NCBI RefSeq assembly: GCF_013337185.1
Contig: NZ_SWDE01000009.1
Coordinates: forward strand, 62,001 to 126,000
Direction of reading: 5' to 3'
DNA length: 64,000 nt
DNA from: Serratia proteamaculans
Lineage (GTDB): Bacteria > Pseudomonadota > Gammaproteobacteria > Enterobacterales > Enterobacteriaceae
The position numbers and the translations under genes are program-made. Within the stretch, counting starts at the first letter, position 1, and each line of letters begins with the position of its first letter. The notes under the pieces are model-generated. The model was given only the letters and a program-made list of their open reading frames with translations. It searched no databases and had not been told where the DNA came from. Below are positions 13,123 through 63,805 of this stretch, in pieces.

Positions 13123-13617
13123 ATGCGTAAGGTGACCGCATTAGTTATGGCATCAATGCTGGCAATAGGTTCTACCGCTGCGTTTGCTGCTGACACTACA
13201 TCGGAAACTGTACCGACTCCCGGCAACGACACGATGACTCGAGCACCAGGTCAGCACCACATGTTTGACGGTGTCAGCCTGACCGAAGAGCAGCGTCAGC
13301 GAATGCGCGATTTAATGCGCCAGGCCCGCCACGATTTGCCTGGTGTCAATGTAGCTGAAATGGAAGCCATGCATAAGCTGGTGACCGCAGACAAATTTGA
13401 TGAAGCCGCCGTGTATGCCCAGGCGGAACAGATGGCTCAGCAACAGGTTAAGCGTCAGGTCGAAATGGCCAGAGTACGCAACCAAATGTATAACCTGCTG
13501 ACGCCACAGCAAAAAAGTGTTTTAGACCGGAAACATCAGCAGCGCATGCAGCAGATGGAGCAACAAATTTCTGGTTTGCAGCAAACTTCTGCCCAGAAGT
13601 TAAGTATGACTGAGTAG
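13123..13617 (+). CDS. cpxP: Periplasmic Cpx inhibitor and chaperone CpxP
   Basis: 164 aa. A signal peptide ends near AAFAAD. The mature protein is helical and rich in Q and M, with two LTxxQ repeats ([13 protein letters not shown] and [12 protein letters not shown]), the hallmark of the CpxP/Spy family. CpxP damps CpxA signalling and aids DegP in clearing misfolded proteins. CACGAGGAG precedes the start. Its 3' UTR carries the sRNA CpxQ, and the AT-rich insertion begins right after. Confidence 0.95.
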
Positions 13618-13624
13618 TCCCTGT

Positions 13625-13683
13625 TTTTCCTTGCCATAGACACCATCCCTGTCTTCCCCCGCCATGATGGCGGGGTTTTTTTT
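13625..13683 (+). ncRNA. cpxQ: CpxQ small RNA from the cpxP 3' UTR
   Basis: 59 bases starting at TTTTCCTTGCCATAGACACC, 8 bases after the cpxP stop, closely resembling the E. coli and Salmonella Hfq-dependent CpxQ that RNase E releases from cpxP mRNA. The seed region (CCATAGACACCATCCCTGTC) is preserved. The terminator CCCCGCC-ATGAT-GGCGGGG plus eight T closes the RNA. CpxQ represses inner-membrane protein mRNAs during envelope stress. Its last 33 bases and the next three form the left copy of a 36-bp direct repeat. Confidence 0.85.
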
Positions 13684-13686
13684 GTC
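13651..13686 (+). repeat. 36-bp direct repeat, left copy (end of CpxQ)
   Basis: Runs from GTCTTCCCCC to TTTTTTTGTC. It is base-for-base identical to 15691-15726 and exactly 2,040 bases from it. Flanking bases do not match on either side. This copy is the native end of cpxQ. Confidence 0.95.
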
Positions 13687-13752
13687 AATTTTTTAGTCGT
13701 TCTTGAGTTGTTGATTAAGATCACGGCATTAATGATTGTTCTTAGATGCACT

Positions 13753-15327
13753 CTATCCACTAATTGTATAGTAGCGATTGATTTTCTCTGTTATTTCTGT
13801 TTTTTCACCAATGCTCATTTTTGAATTTTTAGTGTTAACAATGAAACTTCCAATAGCCGTAGTATTCTCAAAGACACTTGAACAATGACTGTCAAATAAA
13901 GAGCAGCCAAGGAAGTAATTCCCTCCATTCTTTACTCCAAGTATATCCAGCAGAGTTGGAGCCAGAGCTAGTGAGTTTTTACCATCCACATCAAAATTTA
14001 TTGTTGGTGCGTTTTTCTTATAAATCATCAATGGTATTTTATCAACAAATACATCGCTTTCTGAGTTAAATGTTTCCTTGAATTTTGGCGTAGGGAAGGC
14101 AGCATGATCAGCTGTAAATACAAGGATGGTATTGTCTGCAATTTTGCTATTTTTAAACTTCTCAAAAAAAACGCCGAACTGATGGTCAAGATTATGGAAT
14201 TTATTATTGTATTCGTTATTGCCGTCACCAAATTTTTCGTCCGGACTATCCATTCCAATATGAGTGCCTACGGTGTAGACGCCTATAAAGAAAGGTTTAT
14301 CATGGGGTTCATTAATTTTTTCCCACAGTAACTCATAGGTTTGTTTATCGGTTAACTTAATATCTGTGGCATCATTGAAATCCTCGTTACCATAAACATC
14401 ATCAAATCCTAGTGTGGATATCATTTGGCTAAGATTTTCTTGTCTGCTGTTCGGAGCGATAAAATAAGATGTATAATTATGCGTTGCAAGTATGTTTGGT
14501 ATACTGATCAATTTTCCGTTAAAACGTCTCTTTACCGTGGTAGCTGATACTTCACCTACACCAACATGTTCTGGATTGAATCCACCGAGGAATTGATAAC
14601 CTGATGTCAGTTGTCCCCGGATACCACGAAATGTCGCTGCTGTATGGTTATAGTAATTTAAAAAATTGAAAGACTGCCGGGAGAGCTTGATAAGATTAGG
14701 TGTCATATTATCACTCATAACCACAGAGGATAGTCCTTCGGTAAAGATGACGACTATATTTTGGTTTTTTGAATGTAGCGACAGAGGAAGGCTGTCTTTT
14801 TCAGATGAGATAGACTCCCTTTTAAAGTATTTCGCATTGCTTGGGTTTATCGCATAGATGCTGCTATATTGGTTATATGCTTCATAAACGCTATTTGAAA
14901 ATTTATATATTGGTGTGTTTTTCCATAATAAAATTGCCATCACTGAAGAAAATAATAAACAAACCAGTGGTAAGCCTTTAAGCGGTTTTTGAGATGATTT
15001 AAAAGATAAAGCAAAATAAAGTAGAGTGATTAATATTGTTGATGCAATAATTTCAACGCCTACCACTCTAGCTTCGCCAAGGTTTGTTATGGTTAATGGC
15101 TGTATGTAAAATCCCGTGTTAAATATTGAGGACAGCTGAACCCCTTCAATTACAACAAAAAACAGCGCAATTATTTTAATTAATAAGTATGATCTATATC
15201 GCACGAGCAAAGTGATTGCTGTCATTTCCATGATGAAGGGGAGTAAAAAACTGTGCGAAAAACCAACAATGTAAATTATTATAAATAATTTGATGGGGTA
15301 GGTTAAATTTGTGATTAATTTGTTCAT
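13753..15327 (-). CDS. LtaS/OpgB-like sulfatase-fold membrane phosphotransferase
   Basis: 524 aa. About four membrane helices lie in residues 12-134, followed by a periplasmic alkaline-phosphatase-superfamily domain. Likely metal and catalytic residues are E197 (IVVIFTEGLSS), a threonine in HTAATFRGIRGQLTSG (probably T232), H356 (VGTHIGMDSP) and D407-H408 (VFTADHAAF). The plan resembles lipoteichoic acid synthases and OpgB, which move phosphoglycerol from phosphatidylglycerol to a sugar or polymer; phosphoethanolamine transferases are related. The substrate cannot be told. Codon use is AT-rich, unlike all neighbours, pointing to horizontal transfer. It stands alone, facing cpxP, with no accompanying glycan genes. 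Confidence 0.7.
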   Translation of the reverse strand: MNKLITNLTYPIKLFIIIYIVGFSHSFLLPFIMEMTAITLLVRYRSYLLIKIIALFFVVIEGVQLSSIFNTGFYIQPLTITNLGEARVVGVEIIASTILITLLYFALSFKSSQKPLKGLPLVCLLFSSVMAILLWKNTPIYKFSNSVYEAYNQYSSIYAINPSNAKYFKRESISSEKDSLPLSLHSKNQNIVVIFTEGLSSVVMSDNMTPNLIKLSRQSFNFLNYYNHTAATFRGIRGQLTSGYQFLGGFNPEHVGVGEVSATTVKRRFNGKLISIPNILATHNYTSYFIAPNSRQENLSQMISTLGFDDVYGNEDFNDATDIKLTDKQTYELLWEKINEPHDKPFFIGVYTVGTHIGMDSPDEKFGDGNNEYNNKFHNLDHQFGVFFEKFKNSKIADNTILVFTADHAAFPTPKFKETFNSESDVFVDKIPLMIYKKNAPTINFDVDGKNSLALAPTLLDILGVKNGGNYFLGCSLFDSHCSSVFENTTAIGSFIVNTKNSKMSIGEKTEITEKINRYYTISG

Positions 15328-15690
15328 TGCCGCTTCTTGTGATTATATACAGTTTAAACTAACTGTAATTGAAAGATGAATGGTATTTTATAGTGGGATA
15401 GTTGTTATTTTCAATAAATTGTTTTTTGTTTATGATTGAGGTTGTAGTTGTAATATTTTTGGTTTTTTGTCAGTGGTATTTTTATTTAATCATAATTATT
15501 ATTTTTTTGTGAAAAAATAATAATTTAAGTTATCGGATGAAATAATTTAGATAGGTCGCGCCCAATATAAAAAGTATTTTTTTTGCGTAACCGGTTCCGA
15601 AGATATGCATTCCGTGACGTATAAAGCTAAATATTACATTTTTTCGTAGCACCAAAACTGGCCAGACTTAGGCAATATCATGCAAGGTGA
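15328..15690. other. AT-rich non-coding part of the insertion
   Basis: About 360 bases with no convincing frame. It should hold the promoter of the minus-strand phosphotransferase gene and contains a perfect 14-bp inverted repeat at 15494-15525. Nothing else was recognised. Confidence 0.5.
15494..15525. repeat. Perfect 14-bp inverted repeat in the insertion
   Basis: AATTATTATTTTTT, loop TGTG, AAAAAATAATAATT. It is all A/T in the arms. It may act as a weak terminator or a protein target; no function is known. Confidence 0.7.
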
Positions 15691-15726
15691 GTCTTCCCCC
15701 GCCATGATGGCGGGGTTTTTTTTGTC
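15691..15726 (+). repeat. 36-bp direct repeat, right copy
   Basis: Exact second copy of the CpxQ end, including the GC-rich hairpin and T-run. It lies 47 bases before fieF without the rest of cpxQ, and would terminate transcripts coming from the insertion toward fieF. Confidence 0.95.
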
Positions 15727-15773: not shown

Positions 15774-16676
15774 ATGGAACCGCAATATGCGCGTCTGGTG
15801 AAATCCGCCGCGTTAGCTGCCACTGCGTTGGCCTCCATACTGCTACTGATCAAGATTGTCGCCTGGTACCACACCGGTTCCGTGAGCCTGCTGGCGGCGC
15901 TGGTAGATTCATTGGTGGATATTGCCGCGTCGCTGACAAACTTGCTGGTGGTGCGTTATTCGCTGCAGCCAGCCGACGAGGAACACACCTTCGGGCATGG
16001 TAAGGCCGAGTCGCTGGCCGCGCTGGCGCAGAGCATGTTTATTTCCGGTTCGGCGCTGTTTCTGTTTCTGACCGGCTTCCAGCATCTGTACTCTCCGGAA
16101 ACACTGCGCGATCCCGGTATTGGTATTGCCGTGACGGTGGTGGCGTTGTTCAGCACCTTGCTGCTGGTCACCTATCAGCGTTGGGTGGTAAGGAAAACCC
16201 GTAGTCAGGCAGTACGAGCAGATATGCTGCATTATCAGTCAGATGTCATGATGAATGGTGCTATTCTTATAGCGCTTGCGCTAAGCTGGTACGGTTTTCA
16301 ACGAGCGGATGCGCTGTTTGCATTGGTCATTGGCGTCTACATTCTTTATAGCGCGTTGCGGATGGGTAATGAAGCTGTGCAATCGCTGCTGGACAGGGCA
16401 TTGCCGGATGATGAACGTCAGGCGATCATTGATGTGATTTCTTCCTGGCCAGGGGTGAAAGGGGCGCACGATCTGCGGACCCGCCAGTCCGGTCCGACGC
16501 GTTTTATCCAGTTGCATCTGGAAATGGACGATGCGCTGCCGCTGATGCAGGCGCATCTTCTGGCCGAGCAAGTGGAGCAGGCATTGTTGCATCGTTTCCC
16601 CGGGGCGGATGTCCTCATCCACCAGGATCCCTGTTCTGTGGTACCAGAGGGCCGACAGGGGCGTTGGGAGCTATAA
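15774..16676 (+). CDS. fieF: Cation diffusion facilitator, Fe2+/Zn2+ efflux FieF
   Basis: 300 aa inner-membrane proton antiporter exporting divalent iron and zinc. Six membrane helices are expected. The metal site is formed by DSLVDIAAS in helix 2 and HYQSDVMMN in helix 5. The cytoplasmic C-terminal domain has the [23 protein letters not shown] pattern that binds bridging zinc. ATG 15774 follows GGATGGGTT. The usual neighbour cpxP is separated from it here by the 2-kb insertion. Confidence 0.95.
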
Positions 16677-61512: not shown

Positions 61513-61648
61513 GTTTCTTCTCGTCAGGCAAAATTGATCAGCGGAGATTGTAGGGAATCAGTCCGTGAAGTCCAGTTTTGTCGTGTTTATTATTTGTAAC
61601 ATTGGTAGCAGTCTAGACATCTATTTACATTGATCGTAGCATTGTCGT
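61513..61648. promoter_or_regulatory. trmA/btuB divergent promoter region
   Basis: 136 bases upstream of the riboswitch aptamer; must hold the promoters of trmA and btuB. No clear boxes were assigned. Confidence 0.4.
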
Positions 61649-61912
61649 CCGGCCTCAAGCAGCGAGTGAAAAGGGAATCCGGTTCGAATCCGGAGCTGAC
61701 GCGCAGCGGTAAGGGGAAGTCACGGCGATAGCGTTTACGCAGACACTGTCCATTGCAGGATGGGAAGTCATCGCCCGGTGCAGGTAGCTCACTGGCCACC
61801 CGCAACTCCCAAGCCCGAAGACCTGCCGGTGTTACGTCGCAATGCCCGTGGCCGTCGCGAAATACCGGCCATGTTCCTGCGGCATCCGCCAATTAAGTTT
61901 GGATGCTTTTTC
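61649..61912 (+). ncRNA. Cobalamin riboswitch in the btuB leader
   Basis: Aptamer about 61649-61829: P1 arms CCGGC (61649) and GCCGG (61825), the conserved GGGAATCC...GAATCCGGAGCTGACGC segment, GCGGTAA, and the B12 box AAGCCCGAAGACCTGCC. The expression platform is GGCATCC (61881) pairing with GGATGC (61901), next to the btuB start, which would hide its ribosome site when adenosylcobalamin binds. The layout follows the E. coli btuB leader. Confidence 0.9.
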
Positions 61913-63805
61913 ATGACAATTACAAAAAATACACTGCTGGCGGTGGTTTCTTCGATCACGGCTTTTTCTGGATGGGCGCAAGACAACACCACAGCCAAGA
62001 ACAGCGATGACCTGGTGGTTTCCGCCAACCGTTTTCCACAGCCGGTTTCTTCCGTGCTGGCACCCACTTCTGTCGTCACCCGCGATGATATCGACCGCTG
62101 GCAGGCAAAAAGCCTGACCGATGTGATGCGCCGCCTGCCGGGCGTAGATGTGTCGCAAAATGGTGGTCTGGGGCAAGCCAGTTCGCTGTTTATCCGCGGT
62201 ACCAACTCCAGCCATGTCCTGGTACTGATTGACGGCATTCGTCTGAATCAGGCGGGCGTCAGTGGTTCTTCCGACCTCAGCCAAATTCCGATCTCGCTGG
62301 TGCAGAAAGTCGAGTTTATCCGTGGACCGCGTTCGGCGGTCTATGGCTCCGATGCCATCGGCGGTGTGATCAACATTATTACCACTCGTGAAAAAAACGG
62401 GACTACGCTTTCTGCCGGCATGGGGTCAAACGGCTATCAGGCCTATGACGCCTCTACCCAGCAACAGTTGGGCGACAGCACGGTGGCGACCCTCGCCGGC
62501 AACTATACCTATACCAAAGGGTATGACGTGGTGGCGAATCTGCCAGACAGCTTCGGTAACCCGGCGCAAACTGACCGCGACGGTTTCATGAGTAAATCTC
62601 TGTATGGCAGCATAGATCATAAGTTTAATGAGGCTTTCAGCGGATTCGTTCGCGGCTACGGTTATGACAACCGTACGGCTTATGATGGTAATTACAGTTA
62701 TTCCGACCCGGCACATTCAGACGCACTGCCGGATACCCGCCAGCTGTATAGCCAAAGTTGGGATAGCGGCCTGCGTTACCAGGACGGTATTTATGCCACT
62801 CAATTGATTGCCAGCTATAGCCACAGTAAGGACTATAACTACGATCCCAAGTATGGCCCTTATTCTGCCTCTGCAACTTTGGATGATTCCACCCAATACA
62901 ATGTGCAGTGGGGTAATACCTTCCAGGTTGCCAATGGCAATATCAGTACGGGTGTTGATTGGCAGGATCAGAAAATAGAGCCAGGCACGGCTTACATTAC
63001 CGACAGCAAGAGTCAGCGTAATACCGGGCTTTATCTGACGGCACAGCAGCAGATCGATTCCTTTACTCTGGAAGGGGCGGTGCGGGGTGATGATAACTCG
63101 CAATATGGCTGGCATGGCACTTGGCAAACCAGTGCTGCGTGGGAGTTTGTTGAGGGTTATCGTGCCATTGCCTCCTACGGGACTGCGTTTAAAGCACCGA
63201 ATCTGGGACAACAATACGGCAGCTTTGGCGGCAACCCGGATTTGAAGCCAGAGGAAAGCAAACAGTGGGAAGGGGGCTTTGAAGGATTGACTGGGCCGGT
63301 GACCTGGCGTGTCACGGGTTATCGTAACGATATAGACAACCTTATTAGCTATGCATCCAGCGGCTCTGGTTCTGCTTATTACAACGTTAATCAGGCAACC
63401 ATTAAAGGCGTTGAAGCTACGGCTTCCTTTGATACCGGGCCGTTGACCCACCAGATTGGCTATGACTATGTTGATCCACGCAATGCCAAAACCAACGAAG
63501 TTCTGCTCCGTCGTGCCAAGCAGCAGGTGAAATATGAGCTGGACTGGCAGGTCTATGATTTCGATTGGGCCGTGACCTACCATTATCTTGGGGAGCGTTA
63601 TGATGGCGACTACAGTGGTTACACTACGCGCACGGTCAAACTCGGCGGTGTCAGCCTGTGGGATCTCGCAGTTTCGTATCCGGTCACATCTCATCTGACA
63701 GTTCGTGGTAGAATCGCCAACCTGTTTGATAAAGATTATGAGACGGCTTATGGCTACGCTACTCCAGGAAGAGAATACTACCTCACTGGAAGCTATACCT
63801 TCTAA
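61913..63805 (+). CDS. btuB: Outer-membrane vitamin B12 receptor BtuB
   Basis: 630 aa TonB-dependent transporter. A signal peptide ([17 protein letters not shown]) precedes the TonB box DDLVVSANR. The plug domain (about residues 35-155, [48 protein letters not shown]) is followed by a 22-stranded barrel ending [12 protein letters not shown] with terminal Phe. ATG 61913 is the start; the frame upstream belongs to the riboswitch. Slightly longer than E. coli BtuB (614 aa). Confidence 0.97.

Follow-up and report, generated by a model that had tools for sequence, protein, structure and literature searches.

The DNA between the host genes cpxP and fieF of Serratia proteamaculans contains a 2-kb AT-rich islet bordered on both sides by the terminator end of the small RNA CpxQ, which raises the question of how this islet arose and what it encodes. 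The window analysed here is a stretch of 64,000 nucleotides (positions 62,001 to 126,000 of contig NZ_SWDE01000009.1), and its relevant features are collected in Table 1. A repeat search confirmed the exact 36-bp direct repeats, 2,040 bases apart, which had been reported in a first-pass annotation of this DNA; the match extends to 38 of 39 bases. The repeat consists of the CpxQ terminator hairpin, its T run and the bases GTC. In the 5.28-Mb genome only two places match the first 33 bases of the repeat with three mismatches or fewer, and an exact 36-mer pair at such a short distance is far beyond what chance could plausibly produce. The 2,004 bp between the repeats have a GC content of 33.8%, compared with 55.2% for the whole window, and the 2-kb windows of lowest GC fall within the islet. 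The ORF listing revealed one credible gene, coding for a protein of 524 amino acids, and no tRNA was found in the window. Comparison with the annotated cpxQ of E. coli MG1655 bore out the earlier claim that the left copy keeps CpxQ complete. Since the repeat is the 3' end of the sRNA itself, CpxQ was left whole by the insertion, as is apparent from the sequence.

Table 1. Features of the cpxP–fieF locus (positions within the window).
Feature	Position	Strand	Basis
cpxP, host gene left of the site	13123..13617	+	ORF; strong match in 26 of 30 genus genomes
cpxQ small RNA, about 59 nt, 3' part of the cpxP transcript, complete	13625..13683	+	Comparison with E. coli MG1655 cpxQ
P2-type core, 15 bases, CACCATCCCTGTCTT	13641..13655	+	One forward match in this genome (G000)
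Left 36-bp repeat copy: CpxQ terminator hairpin, T run, GTC	13651..13686	+	Repeat and pattern search
Foreign islet, 2,004 bp, 33.8% GC	13687..15690		GC content; absent from sister genomes
Predicted sulfatase-fold transferase, Lpt-O-like; candidate O-antigen phosphoethanolamine transferase	13753..15327	-	ORF, domain, homology
AT-rich region upstream of the islet gene	15328..15690		Sequence
Right 36-bp repeat copy, adjoining fieF-side host sequence; without the CACCATCCCT part of the core	15691..15726	+	Repeat comparison
fieF, host gene right of the site	15774..16676	+	ORF; 95.2% identity to fieF at the G019 empty site

The promoter of the islet gene would be expected in the AT-rich region upstream of it, and promoter-like sites in the scanned upstream region were no more frequent than in shuffled sequences. 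A perfect AT-rich inverted repeat with 14-nt arms and a 4-nt loop is located in the same region (15494-15525). On the strand opposite to CpxQ, the Rfam model Hrs1 (RF02628) matches positions 13607-13683 (minus) with 64.4 bits, a match that may stem from the palindromic terminator or from a model built on the other strand. An ordinary cobalamin riboswitch was detected elsewhere in the window (61637-61844, plus, 87.6 bits).

The distribution of the islet in the genus was examined in 30 genomes. The islet protein was identified only in the genome of the window and is absent from the 29 others. The 26 genomes with a strong match to cpxP comprise 23 in which the locus includes fieF and a single terminator copy, and three in which it is occupied, those of the window, G018 and G015. 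An empty site with one copy, as had been proposed for a search among relatives, was found in G019, where the right flank is the same as in the window. Neither of two patterns named beforehand as arguing against recent integration was seen: the 23 unoccupied loci each have a single terminator copy, and the gene is neither conserved across the genus nor of normal base composition. A search of the 30 genomes with the region upstream of the islet gene returned, apart from the region itself, a single piece of 35 bases in another genome and another of 32 bases within the region's own palindrome. The view that the islet is foreign DNA, already taken in the first-pass annotation, is thus supported by its base composition and its restriction to one genome. 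Three of the 23 single-copy genomes (G006, G007 and G008) contain about 170-180 bp of extra sequence before fieF with no second terminator copy.

The same islet was recovered from an independent source, the metagenome contig IMGVR_UViG_3300035562_000049. The left part of this contig holds the end of cpxP, cpxQ with a terminator copy, an integrase, a regulator, other phage genes and a terminase. The right part, which follows a gap of about 9.7 kb in the reading, holds sheath and D genes, a VasI-domain gene, a terminator copy, the islet, another terminator copy and fieF. P2-type prophage genes therefore stand between cpxQ and the islet on this contig. The islet of the contig shares its ends and 97.7% identity with that of the window; no match to a 20-base pattern from the right end was obtained in the viral contigs, so the contig copy differs there. 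Between window and contig, the islet gene shows 14 synonymous and 9 non-synonymous changes (pN/pS 0.18), which makes it look constrained, with the small number of 23 differences, and fieF shows 33 synonymous and 2 non-synonymous changes. Synonymous divergence is lower for the islet gene (pS 0.041) than for fieF (pS 0.143), and the two lineages may thus have exchanged the islet since they separated. This lower divergence does not decide between the explanations of its origin.

Comparison with known phages and with published prophages settled that P2-type phages use the 3' end of cpxQ as an attachment site in the chromosome. The attachment core of phage WPhi reportedly lies in the cpxP terminator. 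The int–ogr stretch of WPhi, where we take attP to be located, holds the 3' end of E. coli cpxQ, with one base of the hairpin loop differing from MG1655. In G018, the genes directly downstream of the cpxQ terminator match the PHROGs families of integrase, origin-nicking replication protein, portal and large terminase, and another contig opens with a second core immediately ahead of fieF; the element was read over about 11.6 kb and 2.5 kb, which is part of the whole. The integrase of this element shares about 69% identity with the integrases of WPhi and other P2-type phages. The integrases and other cargo that were to be sought at the same place thus exist within the genus, in G018 and in G015 (described below). 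A query of 448 bases spanning the site was run against 5,426 E. coli genomes, of which 5,375 gave a match; judged by coverage, 4,545 of these contain one place with at least 80% of the query, and the remaining 830 contain none. In the E. coli lysogen ERP001, an integrase directly follows cpxP. Passages in the literature place the Wphi1 (P2) prophage of E. coli W at cpxP–fieF (PMC3032704), a P2-type prophage of Salmonella at yiiP–cpxP (PMC6449608) and a 31-kb prophage of an O157:H7 strain between cpxP and fieF, with no type stated in the passage concerned (PMC7609406). No paper naming cpxQ itself as attachment site was found in the open-access literature. The earlier remark that cpxQ was undescribed as an insertion site consequently holds for the name of the sRNA gene and fails for the place, where prophages have been published.

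P2-family prophages of the WPhi type at cpxP–fieF resemble the islet in using the 3' end of cpxQ and in keeping CpxQ whole. They differ from it in that the islet lacks an integrase, any detected phage gene and clear arms, and that its right repeat is without core bases 1-10. P2-type prophages at the RybB and CyaR sRNA genes, listed in Table 2 of PMC3032704, likewise integrate at an sRNA gene, but a different one; the rybB site also appears in a passage of PMC10121019, where the phages are called Felsduovirus. The hairpins of the cpxQ side and the fieF side differ in G018, G324, G114 and G336, and hardly or not in the others compared. In the P2-type insertions noted in this respect (loci L034, L103, L106-L108, L223, L227 and L189), some cpxQ-side stems are different from the fieF-side stem and still paired. 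From such a difference it would seem that the exchange takes place ahead of the hairpin, the CpxQ terminator being supplied by the phage, and lysogens may carry a host–phage chimeric CpxQ.

In order to survey the use of this site, the 15-base core CACCATCCCTGTCTT was counted in 392 genomes of the family. It was present in 240 of them, 24 of which have two or more copies, a count that units lacking the core on one side escape, the islet of the window among them. The copies lie on one contig and strand in 14 of the 24 genomes, and on different contigs or opposite strands in the other 10. Ten core intervals, in nine genomes, measure 28-36 kb and correspond to the size of a P2-type prophage (judged by length, with three junctions read in G324). 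Six further intervals, in six genomes, measure 1.1-4.6 kb, and G386 has both kinds. Each of the six short units starts next to a gene read as cpxP, and together they come from five other genera. Their cargo is diverse: a Peptidase_M78/HTH protein beside an unassigned one in G114; the gene of a Tae4 amidase effector in G236; a WapI-like immunity protein (24.9 bits, Pfam cut-off 27) beside an unassigned protein in G182; a pair that by eye is like that of G182 in G336; and ParDE in G386. Phage fragments are retained in the units of G182, G336, G386 and G188. The units of G114 (L223, 2.2 kb) and G236 (L226, 1.1 kb) are integrase-free, with about 2.1 and 1.0 kb between the cores. Both P2-type arms were matched in them, and none of the 157 phage ORFs tried gave a match. 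These ORFs came from the phage stretches of five loci, so that such null results are not proof.

Two reduced units in a row were found in G015, each with an integrase fragment fused to a D fragment and with one cargo gene. The first, of 2.2 kb, carries a TM2 gene, a cargo shared with the longer prophage contig L045, where TM2 lies beside attR and which itself appears to have suffered a deletion. The second lies before fieF and carries an Acyl_transf_3 gene on the minus strand, the orientation of the islet gene; the link between its halves is deduced across a contig break that parts them. Both int–D fusions (L038 and L104) have nearly the same join, around a short shared TCTCAA-like stretch. 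These two relics have different integrase lineages yet almost the same fusion point, which suggests a recurrent deletion. Some prophages at the site have cargo beside attR; in L041 and L046, which have a P2-type D gene, no cargo was found between D and attR. In the cargo slot beside attR of the IMG/VR contig L044 (354-1742), a Fic-domain protein was observed that matches the SoFic model of PADLOC. The reduced units of G015, G114, G236, G182, G336, G386 and G188 are similar to the islet in their size of 1-5 kb and in having one or a few cargo genes. Unlike the islet, they are flanked by the core on either side; G015 excepted, the core search was what led to them, so that this difference is partly a matter of selection.

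The ends of the islet were compared with the signature of P2-type insertions. The core CACCATCCCTGTCTT is present at the left end of the islet only, not at both ends. The right repeat has the hairpin but is devoid of CACCATCCCT, the 10 bases with which the P2-type core begins. In a search of viral contigs based on the hairpin, and thus free of core selection, eight of nine hairpin copies were preceded by CATCCCTGTCTT, the sole exception being the right copy of the islet on the metagenome contig. The other junction copies compared keep the core too, most of those loci having been fetched by the core search. None of the 157 phage ORFs from five loci matched the islet at E 1e-4, in line with the initial statement that the islet has no integrase, for which no ORF was seen either, and blastn found neither P2-type arm in it. 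At the left end of the islet, GTCAATTTTTTA, nine of 12 bases match the best P2-type attL arm. With a model built on 12 arms, three of which include one T of the T run, 10 of 3,986 islet 12-mers score as well as the left end; this number rises to 93 without the host-shared GTC and to 241 without GTCA. An identity of 9/12 was reached by 522 of 20,000 random draws. The left end scores 2.18, against a leave-one-out minimum of 10.28 for real arms, and a model built on six arms was weaker (60 and 220 of 3,986). The arm motif TGTGGAC was also considered as a test; it is missing not only from the islet but also around both ends of the prophage on the metagenome contig, and was therefore dropped. Both 36-bp copies read as a plain duplication of host sequence. 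With the gap in its core, the missing phage ORF and arm matches and its weak left end, the islet does not qualify as a clean P2-type insertion. Either the loss of phage genes took part of the right end with it, or another process produced the duplication. The att-like character first ascribed to the repeats is hence sound as to the place, one used by P2-type phages, and falls short in the right repeat, which is without the full P2-type core.

The islet gene had been annotated as coding for an envelope enzyme, and its product contains a Sulfatase domain (PF00884, E 1.6e-21). By sequence it matches three solved chains, namely the uncharacterised VP1736, a lipoteichoic acid primase and LtaS2. Genes on five 6.85-kb plasmids of Escherichia and Shigella code for proteins with 40.4-41.0% identity over 85% of the islet protein. 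The pSFyv protein is 39% identical to it in a full-length alignment, and the block NYYNHTAATFRGxRGQLTS and a DH motif are common to both. The five matching plasmids include that of S. flexneri 2002017, which measures 6,850 bp. This strain and this size are given for pSFxv_2 in a passage of PMC3458804, which also reports that lpt-O of pSFxv_2 was shown to add phosphoethanolamine to the O-antigen. On the basis of homology, the islet gene is predicted to encode an O-antigen phosphoethanolamine transferase of the Lpt-O kind. While lpt-O of Shigella flexneri pSFxv_2 and the like gene of pSFyv are plasmid-borne, the islet gene is chromosomal.

Relatives of the islet gene were located by an alignment-based scan (86 found, 80 kept), from which three neighbourhoods were taken, and by a genome search, which contributed three more. 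In four of these six neighbourhoods the gene lies beside gnd (two Rahnella species, Pseudenterobacter and one further genome); the Buttiauxella relative stands beside a phosphomannomutase gene and the Pantoea relative near the his operon. The gnd, his and phosphomannomutase genes, as well as the D gene, the position of ogr and the P2 map referred to above, are our readings of the sequence. None of the six relatives whose neighbourhood was read sits at cpxQ. A protein-only scan of genome contigs gave no relative of the islet protein. In the family search, 33 of 295 genomes had some match, strong only in the genome of the window and in three others (37-40%), the remaining matches being weak and to other sulfatase-fold genes. 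Besides the copy on the metagenome contig, no relative with more than 44% identity was found in these searches, and PADLOC gave no match for the protein. The islet gene was found in no phage record, seven records matching part of the protein at 22.8-25.4%, and the islet DNA gave no match to phages. In E. coli, the islet DNA matched 68 of 5,426 genomes, and the 15 matches listed comprise only a 75-base piece inside sulfatase-like genes.

How the islet came to lie at cpxQ can be read in several ways. We give about an even chance to the islet being the eroded relic of an integrated element, probably of P2 type, that kept its cargo gene. The element would have integrated at the 3' end of cpxQ, leaving CpxQ whole; its integrase and phage genes would then have been lost, and the cargo gene from the slot next to attR would have been retained. 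Against a P2-type relic speak the right repeat without CACCATCCCT, the failure of the phage ORFs and arms to match the islet, the lack of the gene in phage records, the two contigs (L041 and L046) with no cargo between D and attR, and the plain host-like duplication that the repeats form. In favour of such a relic, the metagenome contig has P2-type prophage genes between cpxQ and the islet, and prophage-length insertions, tandem ones and cargo units of 1-5 kb all recur at cpxQ. This recurrence would be a coincidence if, as we consider possible though rather unlikely, the locus acquired part of an O-antigen gene cluster through ordinary recombination that happened to duplicate 36 bp of host sequence with no integrase involved, either by RecA exchange via a circular piece carrying the terminator or by template switching. 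Such a capture would agree with the host-like appearance of both repeat copies, with the position of relatives beside gnd in four of the six neighbourhoods read, and with an islet in which no integrase ORF, phage protein or arm was detected; the low synonymous divergence of the islet gene relative to fieF fits an exchange between lineages, and a mobile cassette equally. Apart from the contig copy, however, no relative above 44% identity was found, so that a donor cluster is missing.

In our estimate it is improbable that the islet originated as a non-autonomous cassette or as what is left of a different integrative element; its attP would have had no more of the core than the hairpin part, and an integrase supplied in trans would have moved it. 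The repeat of the islet does cover the hairpin and not the P2-type core, the islet gene is less diverged than fieF, as movement would imply, and the integrase-free units of two other genera keep both P2-type arms, which trans-mobilisation would require. Internal deletion accounts equally well for those two arm-bearing units, however; neither a circular form nor a second location of the islet is known, and the best match in the genome of the window to the integrase of the site is only 41% identical and located elsewhere. A long shot is the broader proposal of a class of cargo cassettes at the 3' end of cpxQ that lack an integrase, are bounded by the phage core and could be moved in trans by P2-type integrases, with the islet of the window as a serotype-changing member with eroded or diverged ends; the best cases of such a class would be the units keeping just both arms, such as that of G236 with about 1 kb and the Tae4 effector gene. 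An assembly artefact or a chance likeness of two terminators was rejected: terminator hairpins can be alike, but the repeat is an exact 36-mer, sister genomes have one copy, and the independent metagenome contig carries the same islet and junctions. Returning to the relic of an integrated element, the product of its cargo gene would, as judged from homology, modify the surface sugar of the cell, and serotype and perhaps phage sensitivity would change as a result.

The islet adds to a known setting, since a P2-type landing site at cpxP–fieF is already in print. Small cargo genes accumulate where phages land at the end of a stress-response sRNA, with no harm to the RNA, and P2-type insertion appears able to provide CpxQ with a phage-supplied terminator hairpin. 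The short core-flanked units in several genera raise the question of whether they are dead relics or cassettes that a phage integrase still moves. The islet gene itself adds a chromosomal candidate for phosphoethanolamine modification of the O-antigen.
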